Source of the DNA: Halanaerobiales bacterium
GTDB lineage: Bacteria > Bacillota > Halanaerobiia > Halanaerobiales > DTU029
DNA length: 64,000 nt
Direction of reading: 5' to 3'
Assembly: GCA_029981855.1 (NCBI GenBank)
Contig: JARRCS010000014.1
Location: 1 to 64,000, forward strand
Every line of letters begins with the position of its first letter. Positions within the stretch are counted from its first letter, which is position 1. The notes beneath the pieces are model-generated. The model ran no database searches. It had not been told where the DNA came from and worked only from the letters and a program-made list of their open reading frames with translations. This document shows positions 58,952-61,911 of the stretch, piece after piece. The position numbers were made by a program, and so were the translations under genes.

Positions 58952-59458
58952 TCAACCTATTTTTTGGTTCTTTTTCTCAATAACCTGGCCCCTGTTCAGG
59001 GCGATGATTCCTGTTCTGACAATATCCTTAATCCCAAAATCCTTCAAGATTTCAATCAAGGCCTCAATCTTATCCTCGGTCCCGGTAACCTCTATCATAA
59101 TACTATCATAGGCCACATCCACAACTTTGGCCCTAAAAGTATCAGCAATCTGAATTATCTCGGTCCTGTTGTTGCGGGTGCAGTTTATCCTGATTAAGGC
59201 TAGATCCCTATCAACAATTGCATTCTGATCCAGTTCAGTGACCTTAATAACATCTATCAGTTTGTTAAGCTGTTTTGTCACCTGCTCCAGGGTCTTGTCA
59301 TCACCCCTGACCACAATTGTCATCCTTGAAATATTGGGGTCTTCTGTCTCACCGACATTCAAACTATCGATATTAAAGTTTCTCCGACTAAATAAACTGG
59401 TTATTCTACTTAAAACCCCCGGCTTATTCAAGACCGATACCGACAATATATGTGTCAC
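58952..59458 (-). CDS. ilvN: acetolactate synthase regulatory small subunit
   Basis: A 168-residue ACT-domain subunit (IlvN/IlvH). VLNKPGVLSRITSLFSRRNFNIDSL, in parts, is at residues 9-33; VTELDQNAIVDRDLALIRI and GTEDKIEALIEILKDFGI follow, ending IVRTGIIALNRG. It binds IlvB and confers valine feedback inhibition. GTG start with GGGGG 7 nt upstream. A 417-bp gap with a large structured repeat separates it from ilvB, unusual for these normally adjacent genes. Confidence 0.95.
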   Translation of the reverse strand: MTHILSVSVLNKPGVLSRITSLFSRRNFNIDSLNVGETEDPNISRMTIVVRGDDKTLEQVTKQLNKLIDVIKVTELDQNAIVDRDLALIRINCTRNNRTEIIQIADTFRAKVVDVAYDSIMIEVTGTEDKIEALIEILKDFGIKDIVRTGIIALNRGQVIEKKNQKIG

Positions 59459-59484
59459 CTTTTTACCCCCTTTTCACATTATTA

Positions 59485-59872
59485 AATAAATGCCTAACTA
59501 CGCTTTGAGCATAGATAGATGTTTTCCGCATGAACGTAAATCTTGTTTCACTTTCCGTTCGGTACATCACTGGCACTATCAGCGACCTCCTGTCGTAGTG
59601 CCAGTACTAGGACATCCTGTCCGTCGCTGCATCGCCTCACTCCAAGTACTAGGCCCTTACGGACCGTCGGAACAATAAAATGAGTTTGATTGCTGCCCTT
59701 TTCACTCCAGAGTACTAAGTTACGCTATGGAACTAAAGCTCCACGTCTTGCTATTGTGCCCCTGGAGCCGGGAATTAGCATTTTGCACTAGCCCTTCATT
59801 TTATTACGCAAGGACGGGCCAGCACTAGCGCATCGAGCGCGTCGTAGTGAAGAAGGAAACATCTATCTATTA
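59485..59872. repeat. large structured repeat element between ilvB and ilvN
   Basis: A member of the dispersed family, ~390 bp. The left end reads AATGCCTAACTACGCTTTGA and ATAGATAGATGTTTTCC; the right end is GGAAACATCTATCTAT (59855-59870), 6 bp from the ilvB stop. Inside are hairpins ACTGGCACTA/TAGTGCCAGT (59569-59605), GGACA/TGTCC, GCTCCA/TGGAGC (59738-59768), CACTA/TAGTG with GCGC (59823-59849), and an outer pair AATAAAATGA/TCATTTTATT (59674-59805). AGTACTA recurs three times. No coding frame of note. Confidence 0.8.
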
Positions 59873-59875
59873 TCC

Positions 59876-61606
59876 TTAGCCCCCGATCATCTCCTGGATA
59901 CCAGCCCCCGGAGGTACCATCGGGTATACATTCTCCTCTGCAGGAATATGGATATCCAGCAGGGCAGGGCCATCTACCTTTAACATCTCTTCCAGGGCAG
60001 CTGATACCTCTTCCTTCCTCTCTACTCTCTTACCGTAGATTCCATATGCTTCCGTCAGCTTGACAAAATCAGGTAGCATCACCGGACATTTTTCTCCCGG
60101 CGATGAACAAATAGGTGGACATCCATTTCGCCTTTTTAAACAAGTAGCAGAATACCTTTTTTCATAAAAGAGTTCTTGCCACTGTCTGACCATACCCAGA
60201 TACTGGTTATTCAAAATGACAATTTTTACGGGTAGATTATAATTGGCAACTGTTGCCAGCTCCTGGATATTCATCTGAATACTACCATCTCCGGCTATAT
60301 CAATCACCGTTCTGTCAGGGTTGCCGGCCTGAACCCCGATTGCTGCCGGGAATCCATATCCCATGGTTCCTAATCCACCTGAAGAGATAAAGGAGCGAGG
60401 GATAGAGTAGTTATAGAACTGAGCCGCCCACATCTGATTCTGACCTACCTCGGTAGTGATGATAGCTTCTCCCCTGGTCAGCCTGTAGAGCTCTTCAATC
60501 ACATACTGGGGTTTAACCTTCTCCGAATTATCAGCATTCTCGTACCGTAACGGATATTTCTCCTTCCATTGCTCCAGCTGTTGATGCCATATGCCTTCCT
60601 TTTTTTCATGAACAAGGGGGATTAATTCCTGTAAGACATCCTTTACATTGCCAACAATCGGAATATCAACCTCAACATTCTTACTGATCTCAGCCGGGTC
60701 AATATCAATATGAATAATTTTGGCTTTATTAGCAAATGATTCCAGTTTACCGGTTACCCGATCATCAAAACGTGCCCCGACTGCAATCAAAAGATCGGTC
60801 TCAGAGATAGCATAGTTAGCATATCTACTTCCATGCATACCTACCATTCCCAGGGAAAGGGAATCTGTTTCCGGATAAACCCCCAGGGCCATCAGGGTTG
60901 TTGTCACCGGTATTTTCCCCTTACGGGCTAGCTGGCGGACCTCTTTAGCAGCACCGGAGATAATGGCCCCTCCCCCGACATAGAGCAGAGGTTTACCAGC
61001 ATTGTTAATTGCATTGGCCGCTTTGGCAATCTGTAATTTGTGACCCTTATAAGTCGGTTTGTATCCCGGTAGATCTACCTGATCAGGATACTGAAAAACC
61101 GTACTGGCAAGGGTAACATCCTTAGGTAGATCAATTAGCACCGGTCCCGGCCGCCCGGTCCTGGCGATATAAAAAGCCTCCTTGATTGTTCTAGCCAGGT
61201 CCTTGATATCGGTCACCAGATAGTTATGTTTGGTAATCGGAAGCGTTATACCCCTAATATCCGCCTCCTGAAAGGCATCCCGTCCGATCAAATTACTCGC
61301 AACCTGACCGGTTAAGGCTACTACCGGTACGGAGTCCATATAGGCGGTTGCCAGTCCGGTAACCAGATTGGTGGCCCCGGGCCCGGAGGTGGCAATGCAG
61401 ACACCAACCTTCCCGGTACTCCGGGCATACCCATCTGCTGCATGAATAGCAGCCTGCTCATGGCGGGTAAGATAATGCTTGATCGGGGCATCATAGAGGA
61501 CATCATAAATAGGTATAACAGCTCCACCAGGGTAACCGAAAACTGTATCCACTTTTTCTTCAATCAGGCTCTGGACTACTATTTCCGCTCCTGTTAAAAC
61601 CGTCAA
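59876..61606 (-). CDS. ilvB: acetolactate synthase catalytic subunit
   Basis: A 576-residue ThDP enzyme. The N-terminal domain starts [23 protein letters not shown], in parts; the catalytic Glu is in [16 protein letters not shown] near residue 49; the central FAD domain contains [12 protein letters not shown]; the ThDP motif is [14 protein letters not shown] followed by [17 protein letters not shown]. It makes acetolactate and acetohydroxybutyrate. The frame opens 38 codons earlier across a terminator, but GAGGTG sits 6 nt before the TTG at 61606. Between RYSAT and PDFVKL (about residues 485-507) there is an insertion with four cysteines spaced CX6CX3CX6C, absent from textbook IlvB. Confidence 0.95.
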
Positions 61607-61911
61607 AAATATCACCTCGCAAGGTATGTTATATAAAAAACAAAATCCCCGGACTAGTATCCAGGGAAAAGTAATGACATAGGTATCTTTCAGGCATACC
61701 TTAATCAATCTCTTCAGCAATAGAAGTAATCCCTTCTAACTACTCCGCTACTTAAACTTCTATTAATATTCTGTTTTAAGAAGTTATTCTTCCAATACCC
61801 TGGCTTTAAAGTTAGCTACTCGGATAATTTTCTATCATTAATATTTGATATTTGTTAGATGCTTAATTTATTCCTGCAGGGACATAGGTAAAAAATAACT
61901 CCAGTATTTAA
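61607..61911 (-). promoter_or_regulatory. ilvB leader with attenuator-like terminator
   Basis: About 305 nt lie between the promoter and the ilvB start. Near the end TCCCTGGA-TACTAG-TCCGGGGA (61646-61667) is followed by TTTTGTTTTTT, a terminator upstream of the coding start. Upstream are AAGGTATGCC/GATACC and AGAAGTAATCCCTTCT-type hairpins. No T-box GGTGG-ACC core and no Leu/Ile/Val-rich leader peptide were found, so the sensing mechanism is unclear. Confidence 0.65.

Follow-up and report, generated by a model that had tools for sequence, protein, structure and literature searches.

A composite hairpin repeat between ilvB and ilvN of a Halanaerobiales bacterium carries a covarying double-hairpin unit found widely in its class

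The genes for the two subunits of acetolactate synthase, ilvB and ilvN, are separated in the genome of this salt-loving bacterium by a hairpin-rich element that the relatives lack. The element is probably (at a probability of about 0.68) a non-autonomous, modular mobile repeat resembling REPs and MITEs that now serves as a transcribed, structured spacer between the two genes. The evidence comes from the locus itself, from the pairing and distribution of a double-hairpin unit designated M1, and from a second, abundant family of hairpin repeats designated FL. The window is the whole stretch of 64,000 nucleotides that was analysed.

The ilvB-ilvN locus

The minus strand is the transcript sense of ilvB, ilvN and the element, and the locus comprises the following features.

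59876-61720, minus strand: ilvB, acetolactate synthase large subunit (Pfam TPP_enzyme N, M and C), intact
58952-59458, minus strand: ilvN, acetolactate synthase small subunit (Pfam ACT_AHAS_ss and ALS_ss_C), intact
59466-59470, minus strand: putative ilvN ribosome-binding site GGGGG, 7 nt upstream of the GTG start, from the sequence
59482-59872, minus strand: whole type-2 composite hairpin element with inverted-repeat ends and the outer end GGCATTWATTTAA as in many FL copies; absent from relatives

The spacer from the ilvB stop (59876) to the ilvN start (59458) is 417 bp with the element inside, beginning at most 5 bases past the stop. The preliminary description, in which a hairpin-rich element splits ilvB from ilvN, is borne out, and Pfam confirms both products. 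The extent proposed there was 59485-59872; the real extent is about 59482-59872.

The loci of relatives were collected with ilvN as the query. Among the 29 genomes fetched, the 26 others with both genes on the fragment have a gap of 6-26 bp, as against 420 bp here by the same measure (ends of the protein alignments); one Halanaerobium saccharolyticum locus (L061) duplicates one of the 26 genomes in this comparison. The closest named ilvN match is from H. saccharolyticum (73% identity), and the relatives point to Halanaerobiales as the order of the host. Because the gap is so short in all 26 other genomes, the insertion of about 390 bases between ilvB and ilvN is specific to this lineage. An identical insertion in all relatives, as expected of an old fixed event, is thus not what is found.

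No sigma-70 promoter or intrinsic terminator patterns were found within the element. The longest listed open reading frame inside it is an unremarkable frame of 62 amino acids, and none of the listed frames has a plausible function. Since ilvN retains its own GGGGG site 7 nt from the GTG, its translation is predicted to be independent of coupling to ilvB, the element uncoupling the one from the other.

Architecture of the element

The element is bounded by an inverted repeat, ATAGATAGATGTTT, that matches in 14/14 positions (59511-59524 and 59857-59870); any 14-bp inverted repeat occurred in 9/2000 mononucleotide shuffles of the same stretch. The parts within and including this shell are given below.

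59857-59870, minus strand: 5' terminal inverted-repeat arm ATAGATAGATGTTT, 14/14 complementary to 59511-59524
59786-59845, minus strand: M1 double-hairpin unit, hairpin A GAC-GCGC-UCGAU-GCGC-UA followed by hairpin B GUGCUGGCCC...GGGCUAGUGC with loop GUCCUUGCGUAAUAAAAUGAA; covariance model R1 81.9 bits, E 3e-22 (a seed copy of the model)
59764-59787, minus strand: type-2 core 5' stem strand AAAATGCTAATTCCCGGCTCC, 96% identity to the copy on contig C28; the window copy lacks its 3' partner
59711-59717, plus strand: AGTACTA word in a degenerate unit without a recognisable intact hairpin A (word search, pattern scan)
59646-59668, minus strand: third hairpin-A unit GAC-GGUCC-GUAA-GGGCC-UAGUAC (pattern scan); the segment is also found at four other loci
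59645-59651, plus strand: AGTACTA word, complement of UAGUAC on the 3' side of a hairpin-A unit (word search, pattern scan)
59603-59609, plus strand: AGTACTA word, complement of UAGUAC on the 3' side of a hairpin-A unit (word search, pattern scan)
59568-59627, minus strand: second, diverged M1-like unit, hairpin GGAC-AGGAU-GUCC followed by CUGGCACUA-CGAC-AGGAG-GUCG-CUGA-UAGUGCCAG; model R1 30.0 bits, E 2e-6, outside the seed, an independent unit
59511-59524, minus strand: 3' terminal inverted-repeat arm AAACATCTATCTAT (minus-strand reading), complement of 59857-59870

As read from these parts, the element consists of an inverted-repeat shell, two or three double-hairpin units and a type-2 core that has been damaged. 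Six or more hairpins can be made out, where at least five had been claimed. Folding gives -132.9 kcal/mol for the minus (transcript) strand (z = -4.2) and -115 kcal/mol for the plus strand (z = -3.2), and 0/100 shuffles were as stable in either case. The three AGTACTA repeats noted earlier are present at 59603, 59645 and 59711. Two of them arise as the complement of UAGUAC, the sequence closing a hairpin A, and the repetition is thereby explained. A base composition unlike the surroundings had also been described; the GC content of 48.3% is indeed higher than that of ilvN (41.0%) and the window (42.3%), but the contrast with ilvB (46.8%) is modest.

There are at least four related type-2 copies, of which that in the window is the longest; other long copies exist. 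The following were located in the genome.

C28:179568-179818: type-2 copy
C13:20656-20738: type-2 copy
C35:2317-2386: type-2 copy
C23:11049-11177: type-2 copy, 71% identity

The C28 copy is without M1 where the window copy has the unit at 59786-59845: in C28, element positions 8-31 run directly into 90-113, and M1 is the segment that separates the two in the window copy. Judged from this alignment, the two copies represent an empty and a filled M1 site within one host repeat, and the window element is by its sequence a type-2 mosaic of shared modules that are found at many loci.

The FL family and the short copies

The terminal word AACATCTATTTGTAGTT occurs 310 times in the genome with at most 3 mismatches, as against 25 for the reversed control. 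The copy statistics of FL for this genome are drawn from a 443 kb sample, in which the short copies align end to end with a consensus of 345 nt, FL, and derive from it by internal deletion. There are 84 FL-family clusters in the sample, one per 5.3 kb. FL folds into a single giant nested hairpin, and an alignment of the core from twelve copies in five genera has 51 pairs, of which 25 show compensatory changes. The strand asymmetry of wobble pairs, as GU versus AC, is weak and mixed (14 vs 4 for FL of this genome, 11 vs 8 in G039, 2 vs 8 in G001) and does not demonstrate selection at the RNA level.

The preliminary description had suggested that the window element is the long form from which the short copies arose by internal deletion. 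The two do have the end core ATAGATGTT and the outer GGCATTWATTTAA in common, and M1 is common to some FL copies, but the terminal repeats, for which identity with the small copies had been stated, are otherwise similar to, and not identical with, the ends of those copies (AACTGCAAATAGATGTT...). The short copies fit the 345-nt FL consensus instead, whose interior (FL 77-225) is missing from the window copy and conserved in four other genera (genomes G001, G003, G038 and G039), and type-2 copies are few. Because FL and the window element overlap only in the end core and one module, the short copies do not descend from the window element, and an ancestral role for it is hardly credible.

FL copies frequently start about 0-15 nt past the upstream stop codon. 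Between co-directional genes, 58/62 of the FL copies in the sample have one orientation; a related family in G039 has no such bias (10:8). The bias may be tied to replication or transcription; the genes of each sampled stretch run nearly all in one direction, so that the sample does not separate the two. These counts bear on a further possibility, that the element is a classical MITE moved whole by a DDE transposase recognising the 14-bp terminal repeats. Perfect terminal repeats, the non-coding sequence and hundreds of related copies agree with it. The one-sided orientation in this genome is unlike random transposition, although the 10:8 ratio of G039 is not; the internal modules seem to move or duplicate independently; and neither an autonomous partner (Y1 transposases searched) nor, among genomes that include no close strain with an empty site, a target-site duplication was found. 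A classical MITE is for these reasons considered unlikely.

Several observations were made on FL-like repeats elsewhere. The FL interior is present in G039 in at least 40 copies at 91-98% identity; the repeat there is a hairpin of about 235 nt, with that identity in the core (L186, L169, L199-L222), and a first look at this single 3.6 Mb genome gave 633 hairpin-repeat candidates, a recent expansion. Near-identical repeat copies are found at scattered sites in both G001 and G039. The FL core, for example L166 1575-1724, has two apical hairpins with conserved CAGGANG loops, like the GGA loops bound by CsrA, and a loop of this type is also found in the window element at 59604-59625. A purine riboswitch (RF00167) lies near an FL-type copy in G038 (L167 1826-1927).

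Structure and distribution of M1

M1 consists of hairpin A (GAC, a 4-bp stem, a UCGAU loop and UA) followed by hairpin B, which has a stem of 5-10 bp and a loop of 20-22 nt near AUCCWUGCGUAAYUAAAARGAA. Covariance across copies, proposed earlier as a check, was analysed in an alignment of nine copies from nine genomes, and the pairing is conserved: 98.3% of cells pair, and in 24 cells both partners have changed. Covariation scores 0.588, compared with 0.223 for shuffled alignments (0/500 as high) and at most 0.11 when the structure is slid. Among 24 M1 copies hairpin A has eight different stem sequences, with 94/96 cells paired. The earlier suggestion of a structured RNA is thus upheld at the level of the M1 module, which covaries strongly and is class-wide; the form under selection may be either the RNA strand or a DNA palindrome.

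Neither the element nor M1 has a match at the Rfam gathering score; the best match below threshold is Bacillaceae-1, at 22.4 bits versus 35. No paper on these repeats in Halanaerobium or relatives was found within the open-access literature. Elsewhere in the window there is a pan motif (RF01749; 23259-23393, minus strand, 37.3 bits).

Matches to the M1 covariance model are found in 36/59 genomes and 19/30 genera of the class, with 46 in this genome and 30 in G001. M1 occurs as a single unit, as tandem units and nested within other repeats; in G001 near-identical copies lie scattered, each enclosed in a longer hairpin repeat. Between rpsH and rplF it is present in 5/30 genomes (this genome, G009, G033, G034 and G036) and was undetected in the other 25, which include congeners of three of the carriers. 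Other sites are fabG-acpP, positions beside 16S rRNA and tRNA genes, and rRNA/tRNA spacers. This pattern of presence and absence suggests that M1 is a mobile or frequently lost module. A search of this genome for Y1 transposases, as candidate mobilising enzymes, gave three Y1_Tnp loci, whose flanks are unrelated and without the repeat.

Individual loci show further arrangements. Tandem M1 copies lie between fabG and acpP in several species (L021, L023, L026, L231, L248), on the transcript strand where this was read. In L242, L245 and L246, as judged by eye, M1 is seemingly nested in IS200/IS605-like right-end regions. L249 and L269, from two different families of the class, have M1 with a long perfect lower stem between tRNA genes.

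The distribution also bears on whether the element acts on the ilv operon as a cis-regulatory RNA (an attenuator, riboswitch or processing signal) that sets the IlvB:IlvN ratio. Such a role would suit the correct strand, the intercistronic position, the stable fold and the covarying unit. It is nevertheless highly unlikely, as the site is empty in every relative examined, the units recur at places as unrelated as rRNA/tRNA spacers, fabG-acpP, rpsH-rplF and IS right ends, and there is neither an Rfam match nor a terminator.

Comparison with known repeats

In its workings the element resembles REP/BIME, BOX and mitochondrial double-hairpin repeats, but it lacks features that define CGTC-tagged REPs. 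The latter have been reported from five phyla (Di Nocera et al. 2013, PMC3733652); that paper makes no mention of Halanaerobium, Clostridi- or Firmicutes. Like M1 they are small intergenic palindromes with a conserved short loop, a covarying stem and no dedicated transposase, and like the elements here they lie near the 3' end of the upstream gene (PMC3733652). On the complement strand hairpin A reads (C)GTC at its end, where the C is the last base of the stem and only GTC is unpaired; GAC and the first stem G are conserved, with one exception each at the GAC and stem-G positions. The loop of 4-5 bases agrees with the pentaloop UCGAU or UCAAU of hairpin A in the nine-sequence alignment. The REP stem, however, is 8-9 bp, whereas every aligned copy of hairpin A has an upper stem of 4 bp. 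A CCA-like unpaired tail and an AT stem start are found in the REPs; hairpin A is without both and has UA opposite. The REPs form head-to-head dimers, whereas in M1 hairpin A is paired with a different hairpin B, in head-to-tail order A-B-A-B (L025, L021). REPs mobilised by RAYTs have a repeat-flanked Y1 transposase gene, an arrangement that is absent from the three Y1_Tnp loci of this genome.

In outline M1 is also like the double-hairpin elements of mitochondria (PMC2800124; PMC4478555), known from Allomyces (Paquin et al. 2000, as cited in later papers) and, as RHE, from sponges (PMC2800124). They too are two-hairpin units in spacers, and their presence likewise varies between close relatives. 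M1 differs from them in being bacterial and nested in larger palindromes. Its conserved loops and changing stems are the reverse of the sponge RHE pattern (PMC2800124). With two adjacent hairpins, and mobility suggested by presence and absence, M1 fits the definition of a double-hairpin element.

The BOX elements of Streptococcus pneumoniae are assembled in modules, as the window element is, the shell enclosing differing numbers of internal units. The window element differs from BOX (PMC3049150) in a sequence that is, as far as known, unrelated and in modules that are also found outside the shell and in other genera. The bacterial MITEs NEMIS, ERIC, YPAL and RUP (PMC2229807) share terminal inverted repeats, non-coding sequence, an intergenic position and foldability in mRNA with the window element, which has the 14/14 terminal repeat and a longest listed frame of 62 amino acids; it differs from them in its nested, covarying multi-hairpin architecture and in that a parental IS is not known. 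A study of IS200/IS605 elements in H. hydrogeniformans described inserts with hairpins within tnpB, as well as one of 28 nt in the right end (PMC7290912). Going by that description, these inserts are possibly a sighting of similar nesting.

Discussion

The findings are best accommodated if the element belongs, as a composite copy, to a family of modular, non-coding repeats built from hairpins in what is presumed to be the class Halanaerobiia. It would have been inserted into the ilvB-ilvN spacer in this lineage only, its double-hairpin units spreading as separate modules. Movement would be non-autonomous, driven by an enzyme for which the hairpin is the substrate, be it as single-stranded DNA, as a DNA cruciform or as RNA. 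In its present place between ilvB and ilvN the element would be transcribed into the ilv mRNA, and by analogy with REP and MITE hairpins it could change the processing or stability of that mRNA.

A broader proposal is that Halanaerobiia have a class-wide system of mobile nested modules, in which double hairpins with conserved loops insert into the tips of larger hairpins and so make palindromes grow, by means of a dedicated enzyme that recognises hairpin structure and not sequence. The larger hairpins in question would be the FL and type-2 copies of this genome, the repeats of G001 and IS200/IS605 right ends. This proposal is tentative and rather unlikely.

The M1 double-hairpin unit is found across most genomes of the class, has no Rfam entry and is not in the REP survey (PMC3733652). 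It lends itself to studying how repeats built of palindromic modules become larger, change place and come to rest within operons. With the patchy occupancy at rpsH-rplF and ilvB-ilvN, and with type-2 copies both empty and filled, the movement of such repeats and their effect on co-transcribed genes can be tested directly.
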